Below, in pieces: positions 7,943-59,403 of a stretch of DNA of 64,000 nucleotides. The notes beneath the pieces were generated by a model. The model worked only from the letters and a program-made list of their open reading frames with translations, ran no database searches and was not told the origin of the DNA. Position numbers and translations under genes: made by a program. The first letter of the stretch is position 1. Every line of letters starts with the position of its first letter. The DNA comes from Cryobacterium frigoriphilum (GTDB lineage Bacteria > Actinomycetota > Actinomycetes > Actinomycetales > Microbacteriaceae). Location: contig NZ_SOHE01000041.1 of the NCBI RefSeq assembly GCF_004403305.1, positions 1-64,000 of the forward strand, read 5' to 3'.

Positions 7943-7950
7943 CGAACCTG

Positions 7951-7956
7951 AGTCTA
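7951..7956 (-). promoter_or_regulatory. -10 box of gltX (near-leaderless)
   Basis: TAGACT on the minus strand ends 8 nt before the gltX ATG and no Shine-Dalgarno lies between. Confidence 0.5.
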
Positions 7957-8982
7957 CTTGGCCGTCTCGACCTCCCCCAGTGCCGAATCTCGTGCGGCAT
8001 CCCGCGCAGCATCCCGCGCAGCATCCCGCGCCGCATCCCGCGCCGCGCTCAGCAGCGCGACGAGGGTACGCGTTGTTGCGGCGAGAGCCGGTACCCGGTC
8101 GGCTCCGGCGGCGGTCACGGCGTGCAGGGTGCGCTGGTCGTGGCCCGTTGTCGCTTGAACCGAGACACCGGCCCGCGATCCGACCGACTCGATCGCCAGC
8201 GCCGGCAACAGCGCCACACCGATCCCCGCCTCGACGAGCCCGAAGACGGCGGCGACATTGTCGGTCTCGTACGAGATGCGGGGAGCGAACCCGCGGCGGC
8301 CGCACAGGTCGAGCAGGTGCCCTCGGCAGCGCGGGCAGCCAGCCACCCAGTTCGCGTCGGCGAGGTCCGCGAGGTCAATGGCTTCAGCGTGCCCGGCGGC
8401 AAGTGGATGCCCCGCCGGCAGCACGAGCATCATCTCATCCGGGCGCAGGGTCGTCACCAGCAGCCCGTGGGCGCTCTCCCGGTGGGGATCGACCCGATCC
8501 CCCGGGTAACTGAATGTGATGGCCAGGTCGGCTCGGTTTTCCCGCACGGCCGCCACGGCCTCGGGAGGTTCGGCTTCGAGGTAGGTGATGCTGATCTGGG
8601 CGTGCTGTTGCTTCATTCTCGCGAGCAGACTGGGCACGATGGTTGCCGACGCCGACGGAAATGCCACGAGCCGTACACGTCCTGACCGCAGACCCTGCAA
8701 GTCAGCAATTTCGTCCGCCGCGGCGTCGATCGCCTGCGCGACGGTGACGGCGTGCCGAGCCAGCACCAGCCCGGCCTCCGTCAGTCGCACACCGCGACCG
8801 ACCCGCTCGACGACCGACAAGCCCAGCCGAACCTCCAGGCGTTTGAGCTGCTGACTGACGGCGGGCTGACTGAAGCCGAGGACCGCCGCCGCCGCGGTGA
8901 TCGACCCGCATTCATGCACTGCCCGCACCACACGCAGGGCGTGGGCGTCAATGTCGGGGCCCGGTTCGGCAAGGTGGATCAT
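7954..8982 (-). CDS. LysR-family transcriptional regulator
   Basis: The protein has 342 residues. An N-terminal helix-turn-helix ([21 protein letters not shown]) precedes a type 2 periplasmic-binding-like effector domain. The C terminus carries four AARD repeats encoded by a 12-bp tandem repeat (7997-8044), probably a dispensable tail. It is divergent from the class-V aminotransferase gene, which it probably controls. A box ATAA-N7-TTAT lies between them and overlaps its own -10 region, so autorepression is likely. The 3' end sits within the gltX promoter region, so the two may be partly co-transcribed. Confidence 0.85.
7997..8044. repeat. 12-bp tandem repeat (4 units) inside the LysR gene
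   Basis: Four copies of GCATCCCGCGCA/C lie head to tail. Read on the minus strand they are in frame and encode the AARD repeats at the end of the regulator. Confidence 0.9.
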
Positions 8983-8988
8983 GTCCCA

Positions 8989-9006
8989 AGAATAACGTCA
9001 GCTTAT
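8989..9006. promoter_or_regulatory. LysR promoter and candidate LysR box
   Basis: On the minus strand TATTCT (8989-8994) lies 6 nt before the regulator's ATG. Overlapping it is ATAACGTCAGCTTAT (8992-9006), an ATAA-N7-TTAT inverted repeat with the symmetry of LysR-type boxes. Binding there would block the regulator's own promoter and sit upstream of the divergent aminotransferase gene. Confidence 0.55.
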
Positions 9007-9063
9007 GCTTTTCATCGAACACTGGCCCTTGTTGCATGAATCGTGACCGGACAGGCTGAGGTC

Positions 9064-10158
9064 ATGACCGTCGCGACGCCCACCCCCGCATCCGCTCACC
9101 CACCACGGCTCCCGCTCTCGGTCGCCGAGGCGCGTACCCGTTACCTCGGCGGTCGCGGATACCTTGCCGCGTGCACGCTGGGGCTGCCGACGATCGACAC
9201 GATCGCCGCGATGCGCGCTGATGCCGAGAAGTGGGCCCGCGGCGAGGCCTGCGCCGCGGGCTATGCCGAGGTGGTCGAGCGGGTGCGCATCGGCTTTGCG
9301 GATCTCGTCGGCGTCACCCCTGACCGGGTCGCGATCGGCTCTCAGACCTCCGTGATGGCCGCGGTCGTCGCGGCCAGTGTGCCCGATGGCGCCGAGGTTC
9401 TGGTGCCGACGGGCGACTTCAGCTCGATGGTATTTCCCTTTCTCGCCCAGGCGCACCGCGGAGTCGTCGTGCGCCAGGTTGCCCTGGCCGATCTCGCCCC
9501 CAGCGTCACGGCCAACACCTGGCTCGTGGCCTTCTCCCTCGTGCAGTCGGCCACCGGTACCGTCGCCGACGCAGACGCGATCACCGCATCCGCTCGCCGG
9601 CACGGCGCGTTCACCCTGTGCGACACCACGCAGGCGACCGGATGGATGCCGGTGGATGCGGCGCGCTTCGACGCCACCGTCTGCCACAGCTACAAGTGGC
9701 TGGGCGCACCCCGCGGCGTCGCGTTCTTCACTGCAACCTCCGCCTTCGCCGACCGGCTGAATCCCGCGAACGCGGGCTGGTATGCGGGCGAGGATGTCTG
9801 GGGATCCTGCTACGGACCGGCAATGAGTCTCGCTGCCGATGCCCGCCGCTTCGACGTCTCGCCCGCTTGGCCGGCCTGGGTCGGCGCCGAACCCGCGATC
9901 GACCTGTTCCGCAGCCTCGACCTGGCCGAGGTACGGGCGCACACCGTGCGCCTCGGCGACGCGCTCTGTGACGGCCTCGGGCTCGCACGTCTCGGCCAGG
10001 CGATCGTCAGTTGGCCGGATGCCGGCGGCACGGACCTCGCCCGGCTCACGGCCGCGGGGCTCACCGCCTCGGGTCGCGCCGGCCGGGCCCGCGTGGCGTT
10101 CCATCTCTGGAACGACTCAGACGATGTCGCCCGCGCGGTGGCCGCCCTGCGCCCCTGA
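9064..10158 (+). CDS. Aminotransferase class V-fold PLP-dependent enzyme
   Basis: The protein has 364 residues with the fold of class V aminotransferases (kynureninase/cysteine desulfurase/selenocysteine lyase relatives). The PLP-binding segment is recognisable: DTTQATGWMPVD, then VCHSYKWLGAPRG with the candidate Schiff-base lysine. The substrate cannot be read from the sequence. The ATG at 9064, preceded by GCTGAGG, is preferred over an in-frame GTG 21 nt upstream. It is divergent from a LysR regulator, suggesting induction by its substrate or a related metabolite. A short hairpin overlaps its stop. Confidence 0.8.
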   Translation: MTVATPTPASAHPPRLPLSVAEARTRYLGGRGYLAACTLGLPTIDTIAAMRADAEKWARGEACAAGYAEVVERVRIGFADLVGVTPDRVAIGSQTSVMAAVVAASVPDGAEVLVPTGDFSSMVFPFLAQAHRGVVVRQVALADLAPSVTANTWLVAFSLVQSATGTVADADAITASARRHGAFTLCDTTQATGWMPVDAARFDATVCHSYKWLGAPRGVAFFTATSAFADRLNPANAGWYAGEDVWGSCYGPAMSLAADARRFDVSPAWPAWVGAEPAIDLFRSLDLAEVRAHTVRLGDALCDGLGLARLGQAIVSWPDAGGTDLARLTAAGLTASGRAGRARVAFHLWNDSDDVARAVAALRP

Positions 10159-10184
10159 CCCAGGAGTCGCCCGTGAGGGTCAGG
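10154..10184. terminator. Short hairpin between convergent genes
   Basis: CCTGACCC (10154-10161) and GGGTCAGG (10177-10184) form an 8-bp stem spanning the ends of the aminotransferase and the FAH-fold gene. There is no T-run, so termination strength is uncertain. Confidence 0.4.
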
Positions 10185-10971
10185 CGGCGCGACGCACCGG
10201 GTTGGCGAGCACGCCGATGCCGGGAATCTCCACCTGCACGGTGTCGCCGGCCGAGACGGTCGCTCCGAGGGATCCGGTGAGTCCAGGGGACCCGGTGAGG
10301 ATCACGTCACCGGGCAGCAGCGTGAAGATGCTCGAGGCGAAGGCAACGATCTCCGCGATCGAGTGCACCTGCAGCTCGGTGTCGCCGTTTTGAAACTGGG
10401 CGTCGTTGATACGGCCGTGCACGACGACCTGGTCCACGTCGAACTCGGTCTCGATGACCGGGCCGAGCGGGCAGAAGGAGTCGAACGCGGTAGCGCGGGC
10501 GCTGTTGCCGTCGGCGACGGCCAGGTCCTGGGCCGACACGTCCGTCGCAATCGTGTACCCGAAGATGACGCTCTCGACATCGTCGACGGCGACGTTCTTC
10601 GCGAAGGTGCCGATGATGATCGCGAGCGACCCCGCCACGCGCACGTCGGTGGACTGCGCGGGCAACACGATGGCCTCGCCCGGTCCGACGACGGATGTGT
10701 TGGGCTTGATCACCAAGGTCGGCTCGCGCGGAATCGACTCGGCTTCGGCCTCCGCCTCGGCGGCCGCACTGGCAAAGAAGTCGCTGCCCATGACGACGAC
10801 CTTCGACCGCGGGATCACTGGGGAGAGCAGCTTCACCGAGCTCAGCGCAACGCGCTCCCCCGTGGTGCCGAAGCCGGCGAACATCGGATCTTTTTCCAGC
10901 ACGACCAGCTCGTCGTCGTCGACAATGCCAAAGGCGATGGCGCCCTCGTGGCTGAATCGTGCAATCTTCAT
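10180..10971 (-). CDS. Fumarylacetoacetate hydrolase-fold protein, apparently without metal site
   Basis: The 263-residue protein aligns by eye with FAH-family hydrolases along its length (LLSPVIPRSKVVVMGSD, PTLVIKPNTSVVGPGEAIVLP, FGYTIATDVSAQDL, LLPGDVILTGSPGLTG). Active members bind a divalent metal through Glu-x-Glu and an Asp. Here the Glu-x-Glu positions are Ala113 and Ser115 (VRVAGSLA where active enzymes read like VHYEGELA), and only Asp144 remains. The GxNYxxHA loop is GSDFFASA. It is therefore probably not a classical hydrolase. It lies 32 nt downstream of ilvE and may be co-transcribed. What it does is unknown. Confidence 0.8.
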   Translation of the reverse strand: MKIARFSHEGAIAFGIVDDDELVVLEKDPMFAGFGTTGERVALSSVKLLSPVIPRSKVVVMGSDFFASAAAEAEAEAESIPREPTLVIKPNTSVVGPGEAIVLPAQSTDVRVAGSLAIIIGTFAKNVAVDDVESVIFGYTIATDVSAQDLAVADGNSARATAFDSFCPLGPVIETEFDVDQVVVHGRINDAQFQNGDTELQVHSIAEIVAFASSIFTLLPGDVILTGSPGLTGSLGATVSAGDTVQVEIPGIGVLANPVRRAA

Positions 10972-11003
10972 CGGTGTCCTAACGTTGTTGAGTTGTCTAC
11001 AGG

Positions 11004-12140
11004 TTACGCGTCGAGGCGCGTGAGCCAGCCGTGCCGGTCGGGCAGTCGCCCGTACTGAATGTCGGTGAGTTCCTGGCGCAGCGCCAGCGTGATCTCGCCG
11101 GCGGGGGCATCCGCATCGCCGATTTCGAAGCCCTTACCCTTGAGCTGGCCGATCGGGGTGACGACGGCCGCGGTTCCGCAGGCGAAGACCTCGGTGATTT
11201 CACCGGATGCGATGCCGTCGCGCCATTCGTCCACGGTCACTTCGCGTTCTTCCACGGTCATGCCGCGGTCACGGGCGAGCTGCATGATGCTGTCGCGGGT
11301 GACGCCCTCGAGAATCGAACCGGTCAGGCGGGGGGTGACGAGCCGGTCGGTGCCGTGCACGAAGAACACGTTCATGCCGCCGAGCTCGTCGATGTGGGTG
11401 CCGGTTTCGCCGTCGAGAAAGAGCACCTGGGCGCATCCGTTGTCGTAGGCCTGCATCTGCGGCAGCAGTGAGGCGGCGTAGTTTCCGCCGCACTTGGCGG
11501 CACCGGTTCCGCCGCGGCCGGCGCGGGAGTAGTCGGTCGAGAGCCAGATCTTCACCGGAGCGACCCCGTCGGCGAAGTAGGCACCGGCCGGGCTCGCGAT
11601 GACGTAGTAGCCCACCCGGTGGGCGGCCCGCACGCCGAGAAAGCTCTCGTTCGCAATCATGAAGGGGCGCAGGTAGAGGCTGGTTTCGGGCGCGGAGGGC
11701 ACCCAGTCACCGTCGACGGCGATCATCTGCTTGATCGACTGCACGAAGTCTTCGACCGAGAGCTGGGGCAGGGCGAGGCGAGCCGCGGACCGCTGCATGC
11801 GCTCGGCGTTCTTCTCGGGCCGAAAGGTCCAGACCGAGCCATCGGCGTGGCGGTAGGCCTTCAAGCCCTCGAAGATCTCCTGGCCGTAGTGCAAAACCGA
11901 GGAGGCAGGGTCGAGCTGCAACGGCCCGTACGGCGTGACGCGGGCGTCGTGCCAGCCCTGGTCGACGGTCCAGTCGATCGTCACCATGTGGTCGGTGAAG
12001 TGCTTACCGAAGCCCGGGTCGGCGAGAATCTCGTCACGCTCGGCCTCGGCGCGCGCGGTCGTCGACGGCGTGAGCGCGAAGCTCAAGGGGTAGGCGGTGC
12101 TGTCGAGGGCGGTGTTGCTGGCCATGCTGGCGGTGCTCAT
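11004..12140 (-). CDS. ilvE: Branched-chain amino acid aminotransferase
   Basis: The 378-residue PLP enzyme transaminates 2-ketoisovalerate, 2-ketoisocaproate and 3-methyl-2-oxovalerate in the last step of Val, Leu and Ile synthesis. Family features are [33 protein letters not shown], the PLP lysine in [12 protein letters not shown] and [10 protein letters not shown]. The length fits the actinobacterial class IV type. Its ATG overlaps the leuB stop (ATGA), so it is translationally coupled to leuB. Confidence 0.95.
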
Positions 12141-13243
12141 TGGAGTCCCTTGCTGGTGAGGAGGGTCACGATCGCGTCGCCCACGGCGGCGGTGCTGCGG
12201 GACGCGGTGTCTGGAGATGTATTGCGGCCGGCGATGTCGGTCGTGACTGCCGCGCTCACCCGGGCCGCGGCATCCGCCAGACCGAGGTGATCCAGCAGAA
12301 GGGCGACCGAGAGAATTGCGGCTGTCGGGTCGGCAAGCTGCTTACCCGCGATGTCGGGGGCGGAGCCGTGAACCGGTTCGAACATGCTGGGAAATCGGCC
12401 CTCGGGATTGATATTGCCGCTGGCCGCCAGCCCGATGCCACCGCTGATAGCGGCCGCCAGATCGGTCAGGATGTCACCGAAGAGATTGTCGGTGACGACT
12501 ACGTCAAACCTACTCGGCTTGGTGACCATAAATATCGTCGCGGCGTCAACGTGCAGGTAATCCACGCTGACTTCGGGAAATTCGGCGGCCACGGCGTTGA
12601 CCGTGCGCTGCCAGAGGCTGCCGGCGAAGACGAGCACGTTGGTCTTGTGCACGAGCGTGAGCCGCTTGCGGGGGCGGCCGGCGGCAACACCGAAGGCGAA
12701 GCGCACGACCCGCTCGACGCCGAAGGCGGTGTTGACCGAAACCTCGTTGGCAACCTCCTGCGCGGTACCCTGACGGATCGCGCCGCCATTGCCCACGTAG
12801 GGGCCCTCTGTGCCCTCGCGCACGACGACGAAGTCGACGGCGCCGGGAGCGGCGAGCGGGCTCGGAACGCCGGGAAAGAGGATGCTCGGGCGCAGGTTCA
12901 CATAGTGGTCGAGCGAGAAGCGCAGGCCCAGCAGCAGGCCACGCTCGATGTTGGCGTCCCTGAGCCGGGGGTCACCGGGAACGCCGCCGACCGCTCCGAG
13001 CAGAATCGCATCGTGCGCGGCGATCGCGGCGAGGTCCTCGGCCGTGAGCACGTCCCCGGTCTCGAGAAAGCGTGCCGCACCGAGTGCGAAGTGGGTCTTG
13101 TCGAAGGTCACATTCTCGTTCGCGGTGACGGCGTCGAGCACCTTGACCGCTTCGGCAATGACCTCGGGGCCGATACCGTCTCCGGGAATAACGGCGAGCT
13201 TGATCGTACGAGATGCGGCTTCAGACACAACTTCACGGGACAT
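12137..13243 (-). CDS. leuB: 3-Isopropylmalate dehydrogenase
   Basis: The 368-residue NAD-dependent enzyme oxidises and decarboxylates 3-isopropylmalate to 2-ketoisocaproate in leucine synthesis. Visible features are [20 protein letters not shown] at the N terminus, the substrate loop with [12 protein letters not shown], the [15 protein letters not shown] segment, the metal-binding [17 protein letters not shown] and [21 protein letters not shown] precedes the ATG. It forms an operon with ilvE and probably the FAH-fold gene. Confidence 0.95.
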
Positions 13244-13397
13244 AACACTCCGAACTGTGGACTCAGCGATCTGCGGAGTCGATACAAATTTGCCAAAACT
13301 AACCTGTACTCAAACCCTACTGCGGTCGCTTGGGTGCCTATGCTGGTCTAAATCAATCGTCGGCGCCGCGAGGTCGCCACTACGAAAGCAGGTCGTC

Positions 13398-13658
13398 ATG
13401 AGTATCGGACTGGGAATCTTTCTCTTCGTCGTCGGCGCGATTCTGGTTTTCGCGCTCGAAGTCACCGTCGACTGGATCGACCTCAACCTGGTCGGCTACA
13501 TCTTGATGGGTGCCGGCGCGGTGATCTTCGTGCTGGGCCTCGTGCTTCTCATGCGACGCCGTAACAGTGTCAGCACGACCCGCACCATCGCCGACCCGGC
13601 AAACGGCGAGCAGATCACCCGTCGGCAAAGCTCCATCGACGACCGCGACCTGCAGTAG
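13398..13658 (+). CDS. DUF6458 small membrane protein
   Basis: The protein has 86 residues. Two hydrophobic helices (IGLGIFLFVVGAILVFAL and LVGYILMGAGAVIFVLGLVLL) are followed by MRRRNS and a polar tail, the layout of DUF6458 proteins common in Microbacteriaceae. A GAAAGCAGG site precedes the ATG. The function is unknown. It is divergent from leuB and convergent with the MFS gene, with a hairpin terminator between the convergent pair. Confidence 0.8.
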   Translation: MSIGLGIFLFVVGAILVFALEVTVDWIDLNLVGYILMGAGAVIFVLGLVLLMRRRNSVSTTRTIADPANGEQITRRQSSIDDRDLQ

Positions 13659-13664
13659 GCAGCA

Positions 13665-13693
13665 CCGGGCGCGCTGCCGGCTAGCGCGCCCGG
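13665..13693. terminator. Bidirectional hairpin between DUF6458 gene and MFS exporter
   Basis: CCGGGCGCGC (13665-13674) and GCGCGCCCGG (13684-13693) form a perfect 10-bp stem with a 9-nt loop between two convergent genes. No T-tract follows on either strand. Confidence 0.55.
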
Positions 13694-15237: not shown

Positions 15238-15271
15238 GATCGGTATCGCTTTCTCGTTGAGGGCAACCTTG

Positions 15272-15295
15272 ACTATACCGTCTAGACGGTACAGT
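15272..15295. promoter_or_regulatory. TetR operator between exporter and regulator
   Basis: TACCGTCTAGACGGTA (15276-15291) is a perfect 16-bp palindrome. Three more base pairs on each side match after one mismatched pair, giving a 24-bp near-palindrome. It overlaps TTGACT (15269-15274), a plausible -35 for the regulator, and TATAGT on the minus strand, a plausible -10 for the exporter. Confidence 0.85.
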
Positions 15296-15322
15296 AGCCA
15301 CCTCGCGACCAGTTATTCTCGA

Positions 15323-15328
15323 TACCAT
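15323..15328 (+). promoter_or_regulatory. -10 box of the TetR gene (leaderless)
   Basis: TACCAT ends 6 nt before the ATG at 15335. No Shine-Dalgarno is present. Confidence 0.4.
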
Positions 15329-15334
15329 GGCGCA

Positions 15335-15928
15335 ATGCCTCCCCCTGCACAGCTCCCGACAGCACAGCCCTCGACACCACAGCCCGCGACAGCGCAGCCC
15401 TCGACCCGGGACCGCCTGCTCGACGCGTTCGAGCACCTGCTGATCGAGGGCGGGGAGCGCTCGGCGACGCTCGACGCTGTTGCGGCCGCCGCGGCCGTGT
15501 CCAAGGGCGGCCTGCTCTACCACTTCGGATCGAAAGAGGCTCTCATCGAGGGCCAGCTCGCCCGGCTGGCCGGTTTCGCGGCGACGGATGCCGACAACAT
15601 CCGCTCTGCGCCGGCCGGCCCCGTCGACTATCTGATTCGTACCTCGATCGACACGGGAAGCCCGTTCGACCGGGCCTACATCGCCGCGACGCGGCTCGGC
15701 CAGGGTCAGCATCCGCAGGCGGTGGAACGGCTCGCCGACATTCGGCGCGGCTGGCTCGGCGTCATCGAAGAGGCCGTCGGCGACCCGGACGTGGCACAGG
15801 CCGTGATGCTCATCAGCGATGGTTTATACAGTAATTCGGCCCTGATGGGCCTGCTCTCCGCTCCCACCGAGATCGAGGGAGCGGAGAACATGGACCGTCT
15901 GCTGGCCGTGATCGAACGCCTCACCTGA
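15335..15928 (+). CDS. TetR-family regulator of the adjacent exporter
   Basis: The protein has 197 residues. The helix-turn-helix (ATLDAVAAAAAVSKGGLLYHF) belongs to the TetR N-terminal domain, followed by a ligand-binding domain. A roughly 20-residue Pro/Thr/Gln/Ala-rich leader (PTAQPSTPQPATAQPSTR), encoded by imperfect repeats, precedes the domain and is unusual. The divergent arrangement with the MFS gene and the palindrome between them identify its target. The start at 15335 fits a TACCAT -10 six nt upstream. A start downstream of the repeat leader cannot be excluded. Confidence 0.85.
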   Translation: MPPPAQLPTAQPSTPQPATAQPSTRDRLLDAFEHLLIEGGERSATLDAVAAAAAVSKGGLLYHFGSKEALIEGQLARLAGFAATDADNIRSAPAGPVDYLIRTSIDTGSPFDRAYIAATRLGQGQHPQAVERLADIRRGWLGVIEEAVGDPDVAQAVMLISDGLYSNSALMGLLSAPTEIEGAENMDRLLAVIERLT

Positions 15929-18160: not shown

Positions 18161-18267
18161 GAAATCGGATCCTTCGATAGCGGTAAACAGGGACTGGTGC
18201 ACACTCGACTGGCGGGTTTAACTGCCGCAGCAGTGAGGCGCCAGATACCTTTTCACCTTAGCGGCTG

Positions 18268-18273
18268 CACAAT
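18268..18273 (+). promoter_or_regulatory. -10 box of the DoxX gene (leaderless)
   Basis: CACAAT ends 6 nt before the ATG at 18280, with no Shine-Dalgarno. Confidence 0.4.
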
Positions 18274-18279
18274 AGACCC

Positions 18280-19542: not shown

Positions 19543-19548
19543 AGATTA
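19543..19548 (-). promoter_or_regulatory. -10 box of the two-gene membrane operon (leaderless)
   Basis: TAATCT on the minus strand ends 6 nt before the ATG at 19536. Confidence 0.55.
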
Positions 19549-27490: not shown

Positions 27491-29185
27491 TTAGCCCGTG
27501 ATTGCGCCTTCGGCGGCAGAGTGCACGAGCTTGGCGTACTTGGCGAGAACGCCGCGGGTGTAGCGCGGCGCAAGCGGGGCCCAGCCGGTGCGGCGGGCGG
27601 CGAGCTCATCGGGGGCGACCAGTAGGTCGAGCGAGCGAGCTGCGATATCGACCCGTATCAGATCACCATCGCGCACGAAGGCGATGGGACCTGCGTCCAC
27701 CGCTTCGGGTGCTATGTGGCCGATACACAGTCCGGTTGTGCCGCCTGAGAATCGTCCGTCCGTTAACAGTAGTACATCCTTACCGAGCCCTGCGCCCTTG
27801 ATGGCGGCGGTGATCGACAGCATCTCGCGCATGCCGGGCCCGCCCTTCGGGCCCTCGTAGCGGATGATCACGACGTCGCCGGCCTTGATCTCACCCTCGG
27901 TCAGGGCGTCCATGGCGGCGCGTTCGCGTTCGAACACGCGTGCCGGTCCTTCGAAGACGGATGCGTCGAATCCGGCGGTCTTCACGACAGCGCCCTCGGG
28001 GGCGAAGCTGCCCTTGAGAATGGTGATGCCGCCGCTCTTGTGGATCGGGTTGTCGAGGGTGCGCAGCACCTCGCCGTCGAGCGCGGGCGGGTCGATCTCG
28101 GCGAGGTTCTCGGCAACGGTCTTGCCCGTCACGGTCAGGGCGTCGCCGTGAATGAGGCCGGCCTCGAGCAGTGCGCGCATGACGGCGGGCACGCCACCCT
28201 GACGGTCGACGTCGTTCATGACGTATTTGCCGAAGGGCTTGAGGTCGCCGATGTGCGGAACCTTGTCGCCGATGCGGTTGAAGTCGTCGAGGCTCAGCTC
28301 GACCTCGGCCTCGCGGGCGATCGCGAGCAGGTGCAGCACGACGTTGGTCGAGCCGCCGAACGCCATCGCCACGGCGATCGCGTTCTCGAAGGCCTTGCGG
28401 GTGAGAATGTCGCGCGCGGTGATACCGAGGCGCAGCATGTTGACGACGGCCTCGCCAGAGCGGTGCGCGAAGTAGTCACGGCGGCGGTCGGCGGATGCCG
28501 GGCTCGCCGAGCCGGGCAGGCTCATGCCGAGGGCTTCCGCGACGCTGGCCATGGTGTTGGCGGTGTACATGCCGCCGCAGGCGCCCTCGCCCGGGGCGAA
28601 AGCGCATTCGATGCGCTTGGCATCCGCTTCGCTCATGCGGCCGGCCTTCACGGCGCCGACAGCCTCGAAGGAGTCGATGATGGTGATGTCTTTTTCGGTG
28701 CCGTCGCTGAGTTTGACCCAGCCCGGCGCGATCGATCCGGCGTAGAGAAAGACGCTCGCAAGGTCGAGACGCGCGGCGGCCATGAGCATACCCGGCAGGG
28801 ACTTGTCGCAGCCAGCCAGCAGCACGCTGCCATCGAGGCGTTCGGCCTGCATGACGACCTCGACGGAGTCGGCGATGACCTCACGGGAGACGAGGGAGAA
28901 GTGCATGCCCTCGTGGCCCATCGAGATTCCGTCGGAGACGGAGATGGTGCCGAACTGCAGCGGGTAGCCGCCGCCGGAGTGCACACCCTCCTTCGCCGCC
29001 TGCGCGAGGCGGTCGAGGGAGAGGTTGCACGGCGTGATCTCGTTCCACGAGCTCGCAATACCGATCTGGGGCTTGTCCCAGTCGGCGTCGCCCATTCCGA
29101 CGGCGCGGAGCATCCCTCGAGAAGTCGTGGCTTCAATGCCATCGGTGACGTCCCGGCTGCGTGGTTTCAGATCGATCTCAGACAT
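27491..29185 (-). CDS. ilvD: Dihydroxy-acid dehydratase
   Basis: The 564-residue iron-sulfur enzyme dehydrates dihydroxyisovalerate and its homologue, the third common step of Val/Ile synthesis. Cluster cysteines are visible in [15 protein letters not shown] and [14 protein letters not shown], and the C-terminal motif [22 protein letters not shown] is present in part as [19 protein letters not shown]. It lies 65 nt upstream of ilvB on the same strand. TAGACT (29192-29197) six nt before the ATG indicates a leaderless message. Confidence 0.95.
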
Positions 29186-29191: not shown

Positions 29192-29197
29192 AGTCTA
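29192..29197 (-). promoter_or_regulatory. -10 box of ilvD (leaderless)
   Basis: TAGACT on the minus strand ends 6 nt before the ilvD ATG. No Shine-Dalgarno is present. Confidence 0.6.
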
Positions 29198-31552: not shown

Positions 31553-31848
31553 CGGCGACTCGGCGAGGTCGAGGCCATCGGTGGACGCAGGTGCGGCGGC
31601 GGCTGGGGTTTCGGCGGCTGGGGTTTCGGCGGCTGGGGTTTCGGCGGGGAGTGAGATGAATGATCCGTTCCGGGCGCAGCGGCGGCGCTCAGGCCCTGAA
31701 CTCTCAGGATACCGCAGCCCCCTGTTCGGGTTTGAATCGTTTGGCTTGAATCTGTCGGGTTCGAATCTGTCGGGTTCGAATCGGTCGGGTTCGAATCGGT
31801 CGCCGGCCGGTTGCCGCCCGTTTACCGGCGGCGGCTATGCTCGGCGCA
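31553..31848. repeat. Intergenic region with two 15-bp tandem arrays
   Basis: Array one is three perfect copies of GGCTGGGGTTTCGGC (31601-31645), just upstream of the otsAB start. Array two is four copies of GAATCTGTCGGGTTC with minor variants (31748-31807), ahead of the divergent sugar isomerase. No gene is seen between them. Confidence 0.9.
31836..31841 (+). promoter_or_regulatory. -10 box of the sugar isomerase gene (leaderless)
   Basis: TATGCT ends 7 nt before the ATG at 31849. Confidence 0.45.
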
Positions 31849-34322: not shown

Positions 34323-34328
34323 CAGACT
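34323..34328 (+). promoter_or_regulatory. -10-like box of the aldo/keto reductase gene
   Basis: CAGACT ends 6 nt before the ATG at 34335; no Shine-Dalgarno is present. Confidence 0.35.
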
Positions 34329-35326: not shown

Positions 35327-35332
35327 CAGGCT
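35327..35332 (+). promoter_or_regulatory. -10-like box of the alcohol dehydrogenase gene
   Basis: CAGGCT ends 6 nt before the ATG at 35339. Confidence 0.35.
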
Positions 35333-38081: not shown

Positions 38082-38176
38082 GGTTCAAGGCTAGCCAGCA
38101 CTGCGCGGACACAATTGCGCGCGTCCGAATCCTTGGGTTTTCGGCTCGGGCGGGTACGGTGGACGTGGAGGCTCAC

Positions 38177-39103: not shown

Positions 39104-39412
39104 CGACCGGTCACAAGCCACCGAGGAGTCCCCGGGACCGCGGCAAGGTCGTTGCGGGTCGCCAGGTTTGGCTCATCTCGAGCCTCTCATCACCCACTGA
39201 CATTCCAGATTCCGCACGCCGACCCAGCGTCCGGAGGACGGCTCGCCGTGGTTTCGACACGGGCGCGCCAAAGACGCGCGCGCCCTGCTCAACCAGCGAG
39301 AAAAGGGGGAAATCGCATAGGGCGGATCGCGCGACGCGCCGACCCCGGCGCTAGTCCAGGCTGACCGGCGATAGTCCAGGCTGCTCGGGGCTAGTCAAGG
39401 CACAATAGGCGC
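39104..39412. other. Intergenic region with short repeats ahead of the GH15 gene
   Basis: No gene is seen. It contains a G/C-rich inverted repeat around GGTTTCGACACGGGCGCGCC, related in style to the repeats at 16 kb, and three copies of TAGTCCAGGCT-like sequence (about 39352, 39371 and 39391) just before the GH15 promoter. CACAAT at 39401-39406 lies 6 nt before the ATG and is a plausible leaderless -10. Confidence 0.6.
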
Positions 39413-41396: not shown

Positions 41397-41409
41397 TAGG
41401 TTAGAAACC
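41397..41409 (+). promoter_or_regulatory. -10 box and small inverted repeat before bioY
   Basis: TAGGTT (41397-41402) lies 7 nt before the ATG. GGTTAGAAACC, an inverted repeat with a 3-nt centre, overlaps the box, so a repressor bound here would block a leaderless transcript. A second inverted pair, GTAGGT and ACCTAC, lies at 41361-41385. A biotin-responsive regulator is inferred from the gene, not from a known motif. Confidence 0.4.
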
Positions 41410-45109: not shown

Positions 45110-45115
45110 TACGGT
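45110..45115 (+). promoter_or_regulatory. -10 box of the PPOX-family gene (leaderless)
   Basis: TACGGT ends 6 nt before the ATG at 45122. Confidence 0.5.
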
Positions 45116-49202: not shown

Positions 49203-49241
49203 GTGGATGCCGCCCGGGTCAGTACACCGGACGGCATCCAC
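49203..49241 (-). terminator. Terminator hairpin after the dicarboxylate symporter gene
   Basis: GTGGATGCCG and CGGCATCCAC pair perfectly, and after one mismatch CCGG pairs with CCGG. The hairpin lies 35 nt downstream of the symporter stop. Confidence 0.7.
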
Positions 49242-49275
49242 TAGTCGTGCTGAACTGGTCGTGCTGCTGGCGCAC

Positions 49276-50709: not shown

Positions 50710-50757
50710 GGCAGACTCCTTTGTCTAGGCTTGAGGGAGTCCCGGGCGGGATTCACC

Positions 50758-50790
50758 ACTGAATAGGTACTGAATAAGTACTGGGTAACG
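50758..50790. promoter_or_regulatory. Three 11-bp direct repeats between dctA and the sensor kinase gene
   Basis: ACTGAATAGGT, ACTGAATAAGT and ACTGGGTAACG lie head to tail. The period of one helical turn places them on the same DNA face, as expected for cooperative response-regulator binding. They lie about 50 bp upstream of dctA, divergent from the kinase gene. Confidence 0.7.
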
Positions 50791-50890
50791 ACGTGCTGCT
50801 GAGTTATACAGTGGTGGAGGCGGCGGCATCCGTCACGGTTGCGGTCGTATTGGTCACAGCCGACGAAACTGAAGCACGGGCAAAAGGAGC

Positions 50891-53327: not shown

Positions 53328-53713
53328 CTGGCCTGCTGGATGATCTGGATCAGGTTGCCACAGGTGTCGTCGAGCACCGCGATGGTCACCGGCCCCATGG
53401 TGGTGGGCTGCTGGGTGAACCGAACGCCGAGGCCGACCAGGCGCTCATACTCGGCGGCGACATCGTCGACGGCAAACTGGGTAAAGGGAATGCCGTCGGC
53501 GACGAGGGCATCCTTGAACGGCTTCGCCGCTGGGTGACTGCTGGGTTCGAGCAGCAGCTCGGTGCCGTCCGGGTCCTGCGGCGAGACCACGGTCAGCCAC
53601 CGGTCCGCGCCGAGCGGCACATCGTGCTTGGTCACGAAGCCCAACACCTCGGTGTAGAAGCGGTGCGCCTTCTCTTGATCGTCAACGAGCACGCTCGTGA
53701 TGCTGATTCTCAT
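53324..53713 (-). CDS. VOC-family (glyoxalase-like) protein
   Basis: The 129-residue single-domain protein has paired beta-alpha-beta-beta-beta modules: ITSVLVDDQEKAHRFYTEVLGF, TELLLEPSSHP, FAVDDVAAEYERLVGLGVRF and AVLDDTCGNLIQIIQ. Typical metal ligands are only partly present, so it may bind a ligand rather than catalyse. GAAGAGG precedes the ATG at 53713. It overlaps the end of the regulator gene by 4 nt, tail to tail. Confidence 0.8.
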   Translation of the reverse strand: MRISITSVLVDDQEKAHRFYTEVLGFVTKHDVPLGADRWLTVVSPQDPDGTELLLEPSSHPAAKPFKDALVADGIPFTQFAVDDVAAEYERLVGLGVRFTQQPTTMGPVTIAVLDDTCGNLIQIIQQAS

Positions 53714-54684
53714 GGGACCTCTTCCGTTCTTTGGACCTTCTCGCGGTTGTGTACCCATTTTTGCAGGGTCGACCGCGCCCTGTGGGCTCGGTTGAGATCA
53801 GTGCAATCAGACAGGTCAGACAGGTCCATTCGGTCCGTCGGATCTAGGGTGGTGCGCGAGTCCTGGGCTCGGAGCAGGAACCAAGGGCGCTTGGGATGTG
53901 CTCACGGCCGGGCCGGAGCGTCGGCTCGCCGACCGCGACAGACGGGTTGGCTCGCGGGATCGCGCGCACGAGGTGTCACAGATTGCCCATGGCTCCCGTG
54001 AGGTGTCACAGGTTGTCCCGTGCAGGTTGCCCCGTGCAGGTTGCCCCGTGAAGGGCAATCGAGTTCACGGGGCCACTGTCGGCGTCTCACGGCGGGCCGC
54101 CGCCGCTCAAGGGGCCATTGTTGGCTTTTCGCGAACGAAACGCCAAAAAACGCCCCATGGAGCACCCCTCCCCTCCGCGAGAAGCCAAAATATGCCCCTT
54201 GGATCGAGTTCAAGGGGCATATTTTGGCGTCTCACGGCGGGCCGCCGCCGCTCAAGGGGCCATTGTTGGCTTTTCGCGAGCGAAACGCCAAAAAATGCCC
54301 CATGGAGCAGCCCGACGGCCCCCGCCCAGCCCCAGAGTCCCGCTCACGGGGCCAGCTGTGACACTTCGCGGCACGAGTCTCGTCATGACCTGCCCGTGCG
54401 CCTAAAAACTGCTCGTGCGCTTGGCCGGCCAGGCGCACGAGCAGTTTTGGGGCGCCTGGGCCCGCGAGCACGCCCGTATCGGTCGCATGAGTAGGTTTCG
54501 AGCGCACCACACCATGCATATCTGTGGCGCACCGGCACATGTGTGGCGCACCGGCACATGTGTGGCACACCAGCAGCTTTGAGGGGCACGACCGGAGGAG
54601 CGTGTGCCTTTCGGGCGAACGAGCTCTGCTTCGAGCGCAGAACGCCGTCGGCTCGGGCGCGGCCCAGGCGCGCGGGCACGAAAA
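53714..54684. repeat. Gene-free kilobase of hairpins and a duplicated 84-bp unit
   Basis: No convincing gene is seen on either strand. An 84-bp unit occurs at 54081-54164 and again at 54226-54309 with two mismatches. Between the copies, 54184-54228 is an 18-bp perfect stem with a 9-nt loop. 54405-54448 is a 44-bp near-perfect palindrome (AAAACTGCTCGTGCGC arms, TGGCCGGCCA centre). TGTGGCGCACCGGCACATG is tandemly repeated near 54522-54560, and GAGGTGTCACAG is repeated at about 53969 and 54000. Confidence 0.9.
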
Positions 54685-54723
54685 AGCCCCGCTTCATCGA
54701 CTGCATGCCGATGAAGCGGGGCT
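54685..54723 (-). terminator. Rho-independent terminator of tRNA-Lys
   Basis: AGCCCCGCTTCATCG pairs with its perfect complement around a 9-nt loop. On the minus strand the stem is followed by TTTTT. It lies just after the tRNA. Confidence 0.85.
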
Positions 54724-54725
54724 GG

Positions 54726-54801
<76 letters not shown>

Positions 54802-54903
54802 ATGTGAGGCAGCGGTTCAACCCGCGGCAACGTGTAACCCTAACACTCAAAATGCCTTCAATGCGAATCGAGCCGCGAGTGCGGCGTGGGGGCCTGTCAT
54901 TAC

Positions 54904-54909
54904 TATCCT
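54904..54909 (+). promoter_or_regulatory. -10 box of the inositol-monophosphatase-family gene
   Basis: TATCCT ends 7 nt before the GTG at 54917, with no Shine-Dalgarno. Confidence 0.5.
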
Positions 54910-54916
54910 TGGAAGC

Positions 54917-55765
54917 GTGACCGAGCCCCTCCCGCACCCCCCGATTCCCCCGACCACCGCCACCGATATTGCTGCTGATCTGCTCCTCGCCCTCGAGCTC
55001 GCCGACGCGGCCGACGCCATCTCGCGGGCCAGGTTCACCGCACTCGACCTCGTCGTGACAACGAAACCCGATCGCACCCCGGTGACGGATGCCGACCAGG
55101 CCGTTGAGCTGGCCATCCGTCGGCTGCTCGCCGAACGGCGCCCGACCGACGGGATCCTCGGTGAGGAGTTCGGCACCGAGGGGTCGACGGTACGGCAGTG
55201 GATCATCGACCCGATTGACGGCACCGCCGGGTTTCTGCGCGGAATCTCGATCTGGGCGACCCTGATCGCCCTCGCGGTCGACGGCGTTCCCGTCGTGGGG
55301 GTCGTGAGCGCGCCCGCCCTCGGCAAGCGCTGGTGGGCATCCGTCGAAGCGGGCGCCTGGTCGAGCGATGAACGCACGCCGCATGCCGATCCCACTCGCC
55401 TGCAGGTTTCGGCCGTCGCCGACCTCGCCGACGCGTCGCTCAGCTACAACAGCATCCAACAGTGGGACCAGACCGGCCACCTCGACGAACTCATCTCGCT
55501 GTCCCGCCGGGTGTGGCGCACCCGCGCCTACGGCGACATGTGGTCATACATGCTGCTCGCCGAGGGACACCTCGACATCGTCGCCGAATTCGATCTGCAG
55601 CCCTACGACATGGGCGCACTGATTCCGATCGTGCAGGAGGCCGGCGGCGTGTTCACCTCGATCGACGGGCGGCCGGGCCCGTGGCACGGCAACGCCCTCG
55701 CGACCAACGGCCACCTGCACGCGGTCACGCTCGACGCGCTCGCCCCGGCAGTCCCCGCGGGCTAA
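54917..55765 (+). CDS. Inositol monophosphatase-family enzyme (possible histidinol-phosphatase)
   Basis: The 282-residue Mg2+-dependent phosphatase has the family metal motifs: GEEFG, WIIDPIDGTAGFLRG and DLQPYDMGALIPIVQEAGG. Its middle (YGDMWSYMLLAEGHLDIVAEF) is close to HisN-type histidinol-phosphate phosphatases, so a role in histidine synthesis is plausible. GTG start with a leaderless promoter. Its stop overlaps the convergent TRIC gene by 4 nt. Confidence 0.85.
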   Translation: MTEPLPHPPIPPTTATDIAADLLLALELADAADAISRARFTALDLVVTTKPDRTPVTDADQAVELAIRRLLAERRPTDGILGEEFGTEGSTVRQWIIDPIDGTAGFLRGISIWATLIALAVDGVPVVGVVSAPALGKRWWASVEAGAWSSDERTPHADPTRLQVSAVADLADASLSYNSIQQWDQTGHLDELISLSRRVWRTRAYGDMWSYMLLAEGHLDIVAEFDLQPYDMGALIPIVQEAGGVFTSIDGRPGPWHGNALATNGHLHAVTLDALAPAVPAG

Positions 55766-56523
55766 ACCTCGTCGAGCGGGGCGGCGTCGGCGTCGGCGTC
55801 ACCGCGGGCGCGGCGTCGCCGCTCCCGCCACGCCCGTGGGTGCAGCAGCAGGATCGGCTTCGGAATGCGCAGCGCATACCCGGTCGGCAGTATCCAGCCG
55901 TACCGCTTGGCGAGCAGCGACAGCGCGGCGCCGCTCAGAATTGCGACGAACGACCCGATGACGACGAATCCCAGGGTGCTGAGAATCCACATCAGGCTGC
56001 TCGCGAGCACCGCACTCGTGGCGTAGAGGGTATTGCCGCCGAAGATCGTCGGCACCTTGAGCAGCATGATGTCCCGCACCATGCCGCCGCCGACCGCGGT
56101 GATGATGCCGAGCAAAATGGCCGGCATCCAGCCGAGTCCCGCGTCGAGGGCGCGCTGCACCCCGACCGATGACCAACAGCCCACGGCGAGGGCATCAAGC
56201 AGCAGCAGCACGCGCCGCGACCAGCGCCCATTGAACGTCACGAAGTAGGCGATCACACCGCCGAGCACCGCCGTCATCAGGTAGGCCGGATCGCTGAGCG
56301 CCACCGGCATCCCCTGCTGCAGCAGCGTGTCGCGAATGATGCCGCCGCCGAGACCGGACATGATGGCCAGAACCACGAAGCCCACGATGTCGAGGCGGGC
56401 GGTGCGCGCGGCGACGCCACCCAAAATAGCGTTGGCGAGAACCCCGGCCAGGTCGACGGAAAGGATCACGTCGTTCAGGGCTGCGGTGTCCAGGGTGAAA
56501 GCTGCAGGTATCACTTGCCCCAT
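55762..56523 (-). CDS. TRIC-family cation channel protein (UPF0126)
   Basis: The 253-residue membrane protein has seven helices in two repeats, each with the family motif: SGLGGGIIRDTLLQ and TAVGGGMVRDIMLLK. TRIC proteins are K+-permeable channels that balance charge. The start is uncertain: ATG at 56523 is used, with in-frame alternatives at 56535 and 56574. No ribosome binding site is clear. Confidence 0.85.
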   Translation of the reverse strand: MGQVIPAAFTLDTAALNDVILSVDLAGVLANAILGGVAARTARLDIVGFVVLAIMSGLGGGIIRDTLLQQGMPVALSDPAYLMTAVLGGVIAYFVTFNGRWSRRVLLLLDALAVGCWSSVGVQRALDAGLGWMPAILLGIITAVGGGMVRDIMLLKVPTIFGGNTLYATSAVLASSLMWILSTLGFVVIGSFVAILSGAALSLLAKRYGWILPTGYALRIPKPILLLHPRAWRERRRRARGDADADAAPLDEV

Positions 56524-56579
56524 TGTCGCGCACATCGCCCCGCCCACGTGCGCCGGTGACGCCCCGCGACGCACGGTTC

Positions 56580-56585
56580 TAGGCT
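56580..56585 (+). promoter_or_regulatory. -10 box of the NsrR-like gene (leaderless)
   Basis: TAGGCT ends 6 nt before the ATG at 56592. Confidence 0.6.
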
Positions 56586-56591
56586 GGACCC

Positions 56592-57038
56592 ATGAGAATC
56601 ACCGCGTTTTCCGACGTCTGCCTGCGGGTGGTCATGCTGCTCGCGGCCGCACCGCAACCCGGGCTTCTGACGGCACGGGTTGTCGCCGATGGCGTCGGCA
56701 CTCCGTACAACCACGTGAGCAAGGCCATCATTCGACTGCGTGAACTGGGTCTCGTCGATGTCGTACGCGGCCGCGCCGGTGGCGTCAGCGTCAGCGAGGC
56801 CGGCCGCACCGTGACGGTCGGCTGGCTGTTGCGCCGCCTCGATACCAGAACGGATGTCGCCGCCTGCGACTCCCCGAACGGCCCCTGCCCCCTGCTGGCC
56901 GGCTGCGGACTGCGCGGTGCTCTCAGCCGCGCCCGCGAAGCCTTCTACGCCGAGCTCGACGGCCTCGTGATTTCTTCACTCCCGCACAGCCGGGTTTCCG
57001 GACCGGTGCTCGTCGGCCTCAGCGCCGGACCGGTCTGA
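56592..57038 (+). CDS. nsrR: Rrf2-family regulator, NsrR-like (nitric oxide sensor)
   Basis: The 148-residue protein has a winged helix (TPYNHVSKAIIRLRELGLVDVVRGRAGG) quoted in part as NHVSKAIIRLRELGLV, and a cluster-binding loop with three cysteines in AACDSPNGPCPLLAGCGL (spacing C-x6-C-x5-C), as in NsrR [Fe-S] sensors (usually C-x5-C-x5-C). The neighbouring hmp gene, the usual NsrR target, supports this. NO would damage the cluster and release DNA. Confidence 0.85.
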   Translation: MRITAFSDVCLRVVMLLAAAPQPGLLTARVVADGVGTPYNHVSKAIIRLRELGLVDVVRGRAGGVSVSEAGRTVTVGWLLRRLDTRTDVAACDSPNGPCPLLAGCGLRGALSRAREAFYAELDGLVISSLPHSRVSGPVLVGLSAGPV

Positions 57039-57058
57039 GCGTCAGCCCAGCAGGCAAT

Positions 57059-57075
57059 TTCTACAGAATGTAGAA
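57059..57075. promoter_or_regulatory. Candidate NsrR operator upstream of hmp
   Basis: TTCTACA-GAA-TGTAGAA is a perfect 7-bp inverted repeat with a 3-nt centre. A second, weaker inverted repeat (TGGCAT-N5-ATGCTA) lies about 15 bp further down (57090-57106). Both are in the AT-rich gap before hmp. Confidence 0.6.
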
Positions 57076-57146
57076 GAACTGCCTTAATCTGGCATTTTTG
57101 ATGCTACTTTTGTTGAGTACGCATTATTCCGACAGAAGGAGAAAGC

Positions 57147-58325
57147 ATGCTTTCGGCTAAATCCACACCGATCATCGAAGCGACACTGCCGACGGTTGGT
57201 GAGCGGATGCCAGCCATCGCGCGCAACTTCTACGGCCGGATGCTCGGGGAAAACCCGGAGTTCTACGACGGCATGTTCAGCCGCTCGAACCAGAAGAGCG
57301 GCGCGCAGCAGCAGGCTCTCGCCGCCAGCGTCGCGCACTTCGCCACCCACCTCCTGGCGCACCCCGGCACCACGCCGGAGCAGCTGCTCAGCCGTATCGC
57401 CCACAAGCACATCTCCCTCGGCATCCGTCCCGAGCAGTACGACATCGTCTACAAGTACCTTTTTCAGGGCATCGCCGACGAACTCAGCGACGTCATCACC
57501 GCCGAGATCGCCGAAGCCTGGACCGAGGTCTACTGGCTCATGGCGCACGCCCTGATCAAGCTCGAAAACGGGCTGTATGCGGGACTGGCCAGCGACAAGG
57601 CCCTCGCCCCCTGGACCGTGACCGGCAAGGTCGCCGCCGGCACCGACGCCGTGACCTTCACCCTCGTGCCCGGCGATGACACCCCCGTCTCCAAGTCCCT
57701 CCCCGGCCAGTACGTCGGCGTGTCCGTCGTCATGCCCGACGGCATCACGCAGGTTCGGCAGTATTCCCTGTCAGCCGGTACCGGAACCGACGTGCGCGTG
57801 TTCACTACCAAGCTCGACACGGCCGGCGAGGTCTCCCCGGCGCTGCACCGCGACGTGCAGGTCGGCGACACCCTGATTCTGTCCCACCCCTGCGGCGACG
57901 TAACGCTTGCCGACGGTGATGGCCCGCTCATCCTGGCCTCGGCCGGAATCGGCTGCACCCCGAGCGCCTCGATCCTGCGGGCGCTGTCGGACAACGACTC
58001 CAAGCGCAAGGTGACCGTGCTGCACGCCGAGAGCACGCTCGACCGCTGGGCCATGCGCGAGCAGATGAACGACGACGTCGAGCACCTCGACTTCGCCGCC
58101 CTCGAACTCTGGCTGGAAAACCCCGTGGCCGGAGCCGACGATGGCGCCCACCTGGGTTACATGTCCCTCGACAACGTGACCATTCCGACGGATGCCACGG
58201 TCTACCTCTGCGGTCCGCTGCCCTTCATGCGCGCCATCCGCACGCAGGCGCTCGAATCCGGCGTGCCGGCCGCGAACATCCACTACGAGGTCTTCGGCCC
58301 CGACCTGTGGCTCGCTTCCGCCTAA
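57147..58325 (+). CDS. hmp: Flavohemoprotein (nitric oxide dioxygenase)
   Basis: The 392-residue protein joins a globin domain (1-145; MPAIARNFYGRML, proximal His region HKHISLGIRPEQY) to an FAD/NAD(P)H reductase (RQYSLSAGTGTDV, GGDVTLADG-like loop, YLCGPLPFMRAIRTQ). It oxidises NO to nitrate with O2 and NADH. AGAAGGAG gives a strong ribosome binding site. The NsrR-like gene lies just upstream. Confidence 0.95.
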   Translation: MLSAKSTPIIEATLPTVGERMPAIARNFYGRMLGENPEFYDGMFSRSNQKSGAQQQALAASVAHFATHLLAHPGTTPEQLLSRIAHKHISLGIRPEQYDIVYKYLFQGIADELSDVITAEIAEAWTEVYWLMAHALIKLENGLYAGLASDKALAPWTVTGKVAAGTDAVTFTLVPGDDTPVSKSLPGQYVGVSVVMPDGITQVRQYSLSAGTGTDVRVFTTKLDTAGEVSPALHRDVQVGDTLILSHPCGDVTLADGDGPLILASAGIGCTPSASILRALSDNDSKRKVTVLHAESTLDRWAMREQMNDDVEHLDFAALELWLENPVAGADDGAHLGYMSLDNVTIPTDATVYLCGPLPFMRAIRTQALESGVPAANIHYEVFGPDLWLASA

Positions 58326-58358
58326 CCGTCATCACCCCGGGCTCACACCCGGAACATC

Positions 58359-58396
58359 GGTGCCGCCCGCCACGCCTCCACGTGGTGAGCGGCACC
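58359..58396 (+). terminator. Hairpin after hmp
   Basis: GGTGCCGC and GCGGCACC enclose an inner CCACG/CGTGG pairing, forming a branched G/C-rich hairpin 34 nt after the hmp stop. Confidence 0.6.
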
Positions 58397-58464
58397 GGCG
58401 TCGTTTTACCGGCGTCGTTTTACCGGCGTCGTTTTACCGGCGTCGTTTTACCGGCGTCGTTTCA
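58395..58464. repeat. 14-bp tandem repeat (5 units) in the CHAD gene promoter
   Basis: Five head-to-tail copies of CCGGCGTCGTTTTA (the last with TTTCA) end 6 bp before the -10 box of the next gene, so the last copies occupy the -35 region. Confidence 0.95.
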
Positions 58465-58470
58465 CTTGGT

Positions 58471-58476
58471 TAAGAT
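58471..58476 (+). promoter_or_regulatory. -10 box of the CHAD gene (leaderless)
   Basis: TAAGAT ends 6 nt before the ATG at 58483. Confidence 0.55.
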
Positions 58477-58482
58477 GCAGCT

Positions 58483-59403
58483 ATGACTACAGGCGATTAT
58501 GCACCAGCCGCCGCTGACCCCCGCACGCTCGCCCCCAAGGGCTCGGCAGGCCGGGCGCTTCTGCGGTACCTGCAGGAACAGGTGCAGGTGCTGCGCGAGC
58601 AGGATCCCCGGGTGCGCGAGAACGCCCCCGACGCCGTGCACAAGATGCGCACGGCAACCCGGCGACTGCGATCCGCGCTCGCGAGCTATCGGGCGCTGCT
58701 GAACCCCGCGACGGCCGATCAGCTTCGCGGCGAACTCCGCTGGCTGGCCGGCGTGCTCGGAATCGCCCGCGATGCCGAGGTGCTGCACGAGCGTCTGCGC
58801 GGTGAAGTCACCGACGAGGCCGCCGCACTCGGCATCGAGCCGAGCATCAACGCGATCGATGAGCTCCTGGGCTCCGATGTGCACACCGCTCAGCTGACCG
58901 TGCTCGACGTTCTGCAATCCGACCGCTACTTTCAGCTGGTGGCCGCCCTCGAGCAACTGCTCGCGAATCCGCCGCTCAGTGCCGATGCACGCCAGCCCGC
59001 GCGCCGGGTCGCGCAGAGCGAGATCGACGCGGATGTGAAGCGCCTGCGCCGGGCGGTGAGGGTTGCGGGGGCACTGCCCGACGGTGCCGCTCGTGATCAC
59101 GCCCTGCACGAGGTGCGCAAACGCGCCAAGCGACTGCGGTACGCCGCCGAGGCCGCGGTCACGGTCGACCCACGGCGAGCGACCCGCATGGTCGCGCTCG
59201 CCCAGAGCCTGCAGGAGGCGCTGGGCGAGCATCAGGACAGCGTCGTCGCCCGCGACGTGCTGCTGCGGCTCGCAAACGAGGCGCACGCTCGCGGCGAGGA
59301 CGCGTTCGGTTTCGGCCGACTGCACGCCCTCGAAGAGGTGCGCGCACGCGCAGCCGAGGCGCGCTTTCGCCGAGACTGGCGCACGCTGCTGCGCGCCCTC
59401 TGA
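58483..59403 (+). CDS. CHAD domain protein (polyphosphate-associated)
   Basis: The 306-residue helical protein has two CHAD-type repeats with conserved basic residues: AVHKMRTATRRLRSALASYR, EVRKRAKRLRYAAEAAV and WLAGVLGIARDAEVL. CHAD proteins bind polyphosphate granules. No linked polyphosphate gene is present. The stop codon lies in the first unit of a 13-bp tandem repeat. Confidence 0.85.
   Translation: MTTGDYAPAAADPRTLAPKGSAGRALLRYLQEQVQVLREQDPRVRENAPDAVHKMRTATRRLRSALASYRALLNPATADQLRGELRWLAGVLGIARDAEVLHERLRGEVTDEAAALGIEPSINAIDELLGSDVHTAQLTVLDVLQSDRYFQLVAALEQLLANPPLSADARQPARRVAQSEIDADVKRLRRAVRVAGALPDGAARDHALHEVRKRAKRLRYAAEAAVTVDPRRATRMVALAQSLQEALGEHQDSVVARDVLLRLANEAHARGEDAFGFGRLHALEEVRARAAEARFRRDWRTLLRAL

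Follow-up and report, generated by a model that had tools for sequence, protein, structure and literature searches.

Leaderless gene expression from a box placed close to the start codon is well described in actinobacteria. Zheng et al. 2011 predicted such genes from a TANNNT motif whose first T lies about 12 bp ahead of the start codon, in about 20% of genes and in 86 of 89 actinobacterial genomes (PMC3160421). In Mycobacterium tuberculosis, Cortes et al. 2013 described a TANNNT −10 element with no conserved −35, and 22% of the genes expressed in exponential phase were leaderless (PMC3898074). Here, we analyze boxes of this kind, TAnnnT and its variant CAnnnT, in a 64,000-nucleotide (nt) stretch of Cryobacterium frigoriphilum (contig NZ_SOHE01000041.1, positions 1 to 64,000; hereafter the window), in further sequence of the same genome and in related bacteria. 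Throughout, k is the number of nt separating the end of the box from the start codon (k6 for six nt), and genes with a TAnnnT box at k6-8 are called TA-led.

The Cryobacterium boxes resemble those of Zheng et al., as their first T lies at −12 or −13 and they precede roughly 16-18% of genes; so far as the available text of that paper describes its TA-led genes, there is no difference in kind. From the accessible parts of Cortes et al., the TANNNT −10 element is shared with M. tuberculosis as well, with the difference that starts were mapped there by RNA sequencing, and in Cryobacterium are inferred from sequence. A TANNNT motif a few bp before the open reading frame (ORF) is also found in the −10 region adjacent to ORFs of Deinococcus-Thermus, according to the available part of that report (PMC12340547). 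Cryobacterium is a further instance of the known actinobacterial pattern, and the spacing at gltX adds a small point of its own. The names Leifsonia and Clavibacter are absent from the available text of Zheng et al., in which Cryobacterium was not sought, and a literature search, judged by term counts, gave no work on leaderless transcripts of Microbacteriaceae or Micrococcales among the matches listed. This analysis extends a known mode of expression to Cryobacterium, with genome-wide numbers and conservation in orthologs.

The draft genome comprises 4.38 Mb in 93 contigs, with a GC content of 66%. Compared with its counterpart in Cryobacterium suzukii, the gltX protein of the window shows 87% identity; its six best matches all belong to Cryobacterium. 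Genes were called in a 453-kb sample, consisting of the window and 389 kb of the same genome, with a custom-written motif-blind caller that ignores upstream sequence, which gave 323 starts (49 genes in the window). The caller misses short genes and may place a start too far downstream, as for ilvD; such start errors should dilute a box signal, not create it.

The earlier note on this DNA had suggested a scan for TAnnnT at a fixed distance from the start. Run on the 453 kb, the scan peaks at k6 and k7, with boxes at 37 and 16 of the 323 motif-blind starts, respectively, compared to an average of about 1.7 at offsets 12-50. For k6-8 combined, 57 of the 323 genes are TA-led where 5.1 would be expected; the window alone has 9 of 49 against 0.77 (p=6.5e-8). 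When alternative in-frame starts are allowed, the count rises to 69 of 322 genes, with a control-offset mean of 9.9 (maximum 19). Net of background, about 16% to 18% of genes, about one in six, are TA-led. The peak does not depend on gene calling. In the 453 kb, TAnnnT-Nk-ATG occurs at 53 sites for k6 and 34 for k7, against about 12.7 per offset, and no comparable rise is seen for TTG, CTG, ATC or ACG after TAnnnT. Across the whole genome, TAnnnT-N6-ATG is found 496 times against 174 for the reversed pattern, and TAnnnT-N7-ATG 256 times against 162. Of the 87 TAnnnT-N6/7-ATG sites in the 453 kb, 51 coincide with a start of a called gene, either the one called or an in-frame alternative; the other 36 compare with about 25 expected from other offsets, so that few leaderless small ORFs can be hidden among them.

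At the level of single genes, a box 6-8 nt before the start had been claimed for at least fourteen genes of the window. All 15 genes named do carry one, TAnnnT in 11 and CAnnnT in four, and the spacing is k6 in 11, k7 in three and k8 in gltX. We looked for the same boxes in relatives (1 to 19 per gene), as TAnnnT or CAnnnT at k6-8, with every in-frame ATG or GTG close to the predicted position accepted as a start; offsets 10-39, treated identically, served as a control. Loci with an identity below 45%, an alignment start beyond residue 40 or a start too near the locus end were dropped beforehand. Of 116 orthologs of the named genes, 101 retain the box, against 16.9 in the control, a count that takes in TetR (6/6, ambiguous) and LysR (17/18, overlapping an inverted repeat). 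For 17 other genes of the window, a box was found in 7 of 99 orthologs, close to the 7.6 of the control. What is conserved is the core of the motif. For example, the NsrR box reads TAGGCT, TACAGT, TACTGT or TACGCT depending on the species, with T, A, T and k6 constant and the middle bases changing. CAnnnT boxes are retained too, in 6/6 orthologs of DoxX, 6/6 of GH15 and 3/4 of ADH.

Chance deserves to be weighed here, because TAnnnT fixes three bases only and start regions may be somewhat AT-richer than their surroundings. Neither the 57 genes found where 5.1 were expected, nor the absence of a rise at neighboring offsets, nor the retention in 101 of 116 orthologs against 16.9 fits with it. 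As a general account chance was therefore rejected, and its probability is negligible. It is possible, though, that single boxes have arisen this way, above all those of TetR, CHAD and AKR.

The position of the boxes within operons indicates which kind of signal they are. Genes at most 30 nt behind a gene on the same strand were regarded as likely operon-internal, and genes after a strand change or after more than 100 nt of space as likely operon heads; the class with 31-100 nt (7/53 TA-led) and the stretch edges (3/9) were left out. Only 4 of the 71 operon-internal genes are TA-led, compared to 43 of the 190 heads (p=0.001). Pairing with the Shine-Dalgarno (SD) sequence, given as anti-SD duplex energy and taken as strong at −6 kcal/mol or stronger, is similarly frequent in both classes (35/71 and 86/190, p=0.58). 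A promoter belongs at the head of an operon, whereas a translation signal would be indifferent to it, and hence the boxes are read as promoters rather than as ribosome signals.

TA-led genes also pair more weakly with the anti-SD, with a median of −3.7 against −6.1 kcal/mol; 46 of the 57 are weaker than −6 kcal/mol, compared to 125 of 266 other genes. These genes need another way to start translation, and the box could in principle provide it, if it were an A/T-rich start region of the non-SD type and the mRNAs had leaders, transcribed from promoters located further upstream. Yet such a signal would be equally useful at operon-internal genes, where the box is rare, and a TAnnnT at fixed spacing, in which T, A and T stay and the middle bases vary, fits a −10 element. 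We consider a translation signal very improbable. The claim that the named genes lack a SD sequence held for 14 of the 15, which are weaker than −6 kcal/mol, and failed for the PPOX-like gene, at −7.6.

RNA polymerase begins transcription about 7 nt past the end of the −10 box. If the housekeeping sigma factor recognizes the TAGGCT-like (TAnnnT) boxes as −10 elements, a spacing of k6 or k7 would make the initial base of the start codon (ATG or GTG) the first one transcribed, or place the two within about one base of each other. The resulting mRNA would have neither a 5′ leader nor a SD sequence, and the ribosome would load on the 5′-terminal ATG or GTG. In mycobacteria, a 5′-terminal ATG or GTG is necessary and sufficient for leaderless translation to start, as stated in the available part of that study (PMC4633059). 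For the identity of the sigma factor, the point of transcription start and the leaderless translation we draw on general promoter knowledge and the papers cited, while the box, its spacing, its excess over controls, its conservation and its place in operons were observed directly. The earlier proposal of widespread leaderless transcription thus gains support at the sequence level from the fixed spacing, the conserved T, A and T, the preference for operon heads and the weaker SD pairing. It is very likely that the boxes are −10 elements giving leaderless or nearly leaderless mRNAs for about 16-18% of genes.

A variant of this reading accepts the boxes as −10 elements, but supposes that many of the genes have upstream promoters too, and that leaderless mRNA is minor or conditional. 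The 11 of 57 TA-led genes that pair with the anti-SD at −6 kcal/mol or stronger would fit, and in M. tuberculosis 47 genes had an additional start, according to the accessible part of Cortes et al. (PMC3898074). The lack of SD pairing in most TA-led genes (46/57) speaks against it, and we regard it as unlikely, if less so than the other alternatives.

Several observations weigh against the −10 elements and leaderless mRNAs proposed here. Besides the 11 TA-led genes with strong SD pairing, 117 of the 323 genes lack both a box and strong SD pairing, which means that the box explains a part of the non-SD genes, or that many called starts are wrong. There is no clear −35 element 16-19 nt upstream in the 37 k6 genes, where the best TTGACA match averages 2.65 against 2.41 in shuffled sequence (sd 0.13). 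A preference for C at position −1, known for mycobacterial starts, was tried as a marker of TA-led genes and failed to separate them from SD genes (17/37 at k6 and 89/141, respectively). For GTG, the scan of the 453 kb without gene calling gives 32 sites at k6, and single other offsets reach 33. Genome-wide, TAnnnT-N6-GTG occurs 332 times, below the reversed control of 470, which may be a poor control for GTG; a GTG peak at k6 does appear, with 11 against about 1.7, when called or alternative starts are counted. In five Cryobacterium relatives, 366 kb of sequence shows a weak ATG peak, with 34 and 30 sites where the control gives 23.9 and single other offsets reach 34. Furthermore, five of the seven boxes in orthologs of the other window genes belong to IlvE (window 12140), for which CAAGGT stands at k6 in 5/6 orthologs; the in-frame ATG that follows it lies about 30-36 nt downstream from where the start is expected. 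This may be chance, or a missed case or misplaced start, and it indicates that a conserved CAnnnT alone can mislead.

The pattern is not restricted to one genome. All 24 same-genus relatives exceed the reversed-pattern control at k6, and so do all 15 other genomes of the order, although hardly in G027 (187 against 164) and G034 (151 against 142), and little in G039 (136 against 102). In 73 gltX neighborhoods outside Cryobacterium, the ATG count at k6 is 67 against 15.4. The gltX mask used for this count assumed a start at 3001 and is misplaced or absent where the layout differs, but because gltX boxes are not at k6, the count should not depend on it. Escherichia coli K-12 has no such peak in 50 kb, where 12 sites at k6 and 21 sites at k7 compare with a control of 15.9 and single other offsets reach 27, and among 43 annotated genes there the box is found at k6 in none and at k7 in two.

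The spacing of gltX departs from this general picture. In the window, its box TAGACT (7951-7956, reverse strand) stands at k8 before the ATG at 7942, one position before the range given in the earlier note, which opens at 7943. We compared 80 of 585 confirmed gltX loci, mostly from Microbacteriaceae. A TAGAAT-like box lies at k7-10 in 79 of them (k7 in 10, k8 in 25, k9 in 30 and k10 in 14), is absent from one (L059) and is never found at k6, the genome-wide peak; control offsets average 0.2. Among relatives, 18 loci have the LysR gene as well, and in every one of the 18 the box is at k8 or k9; it is at k7 in the closest relative. Six gltX orthologs scored as boxless at k6-8 carry a box at k9. 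If transcription begins about 7 nt past the box, the gltX leader would measure about 1-4 nt, and therefore the mRNA is probably not fully leaderless. Cortes et al., in the accessible part of their text, counted starts at most 5 bp from the start codon as leaderless, and 7 of 14 tRNA synthetase genes as leaderless (PMC3898074). By this broader definition gltX qualifies, and its conserved spacing is distinctive. Tentatively, a leader of about 1-4 nt, which leaves no room for a SD sequence, could be retained as a conserved departure that perhaps tunes the amount of glutamyl-tRNA synthetase made from a nearly leaderless mRNA. The use of such mRNAs could be probed simply through the gltX spacing.

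For most of the named genes, Pfam matches agree with the names given, namely for gltX, LysR, DoxX, ilvD, AKR, ADH, GH15, BioY, inositol monophosphatase, Rrf2 (NsrR family), CHAD and TetR. The sugar isomerase matches a xylose isomerase-like TIM barrel, the PNPOx match of the PPOX-like gene lies slightly below the family cut-off, and the Pfam search gave no match for the 19536 membrane protein. This membrane protein gene has TAATCT at 19543-19548 on the reverse strand (k6), and TAATCT or TACTCT at k6 in 6/6 orthologs. On the same strand, ilvD has TAGACT at 29192-29197, at k6 before a start at 29185, with TAGACT at k6-7 in 6/6 orthologs. The coding-only caller had placed this start at 29113, and the box, the ortholog alignment and the conservation together point to 29185. 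Here the box helps to place a gene start that a motif-blind caller misplaced. Disagreement on gene starts is larger in Actinobacteria than in Enterobacterales, according to the available part of PMC9581028.

The remaining named boxes are on the forward strand. Those of DoxX (CACAAT, 18268-18273, start 18280; CACAAT at k6 in 6/6 orthologs) and GH15 (CACAAT, 39401-39406, start 39413; CACAAT, CAGGAT, CAGAAT or CAGTAT at k6 in 6/6) both lie at k6, as does that of ADH (CAGGCT, 35327-35332, start 35339; CAGGCT or CACGCT at k6 in 3/4). The sugar isomerase has TATGCT at 31836-31841 (k7, start 31849), with 6/6 orthologs at k6-7 and a GTG start in four. For bioY, TAGGTT at 41397-41402 (k7, start 41410) is matched by TAGATT or TAAGTT at k7 in 6/6 orthologs. 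The PPOX-like gene, with its strong SD pairing, has TACGGT at 45110-45115 (k6, start 45122), kept at k6-7 in 4/4 orthologs. The box is retained in every ortholog of the inositol monophosphatase family gene (TATCCT, 54904-54909, k7 before the GTG at 54917; 10/10 orthologs at k6-7, all GTG) and of NsrR/Rrf2 (TAGGCT, 56580-56585, k6, start 56592; 9/9 orthologs, all at k6). The boxes of AKR (CAGACT, 34323-34328, k6, start 34335; 1/1 ortholog) and CHAD (TAAGAT, 58471-58476, k6, start 58483; 2/9 orthologs, one of them convincing, TAAGCT in the closest relative) are weakly supported by this comparison.

The TetR case is ambiguous. TACCAT at 15323-15328 (forward strand) stands at k6 before the ATG at 15335, and TACCAT is found at k6-7 in 6/6 relatives. 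However, the final AT of TACCAT and the following G form an ATG of their own. Four of the six relatives read TTACCATGGCCCCTATG and a fifth TTACCATGGCCCATATG, and in these five the first ATG is in frame, whereas the window and its closest relative read ATGGCGCAATG, with the first ATG out of frame. Since the relation between box, ATG and frame differs in 5/6 relatives, the TetR start and box are uncertain, and TACCAT may overlap a start codon instead of being a −10 box. The out-of-frame ATG is preceded, at a distance of 7 nt, by a second box, TATTCT. The region between the genes for the MFS transporter and TetR contains a perfect 16-bp palindrome, TACCGTCTAGACGGTA, at 15276-15291, and one-base variants of it occupy the same place in relatives. 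It is likely the operator of TetR.

The LysR box, TATTCT at 8989-8994 (reverse strand, k6, start 8982), is kept in 17 of 18 orthologs. It overlaps an inverted repeat, ATAA-N7-TTAT (8992-9006), which is found in 18 of 19 loci including the window. The repeat is flanked by LysR and by a divergently oriented gene (9043-10158) that resembles class-V aminotransferases. The conservation of the LysR box is consequently not independent, but partly driven by the repeat, which likely serves autoregulation by the LysR protein.

Two further boxes, absent from the earlier list and outside the ortholog count, were seen on the reverse strand. The first is TATGCT at 1806-1811, at k6 before a TIR-domain gene starting at 1799. 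The second, TAGCCT at 38088-38093 (k6, start 38081), precedes a 57-amino acid ORF without a match in the Pfam search and is a weak candidate. The TIR-domain gene lies near a phage-type integrase and a tRNA gene (window 1017-1847 and 4606-5811; tRNA gene, 6192-6263). This region looks like the edge of an integrated element, which may carry a defense gene.

Elsewhere in the same genome, an inverted repeat was noticed at dispersed sites on contigs C31, C37, C40, C50 and C53 (L213-L217); its arms, GTACCATTCGACGG and CCGTCGAATGGTAC, enclose a variable loop. One arm has at least 11 matches, of which five stretches were read, and an exact 15-mer of the repeat is absent from the 453-kb sample. By its structure, it looks like a mobile or repetitive extragenic palindromic (REP)-like hairpin element.

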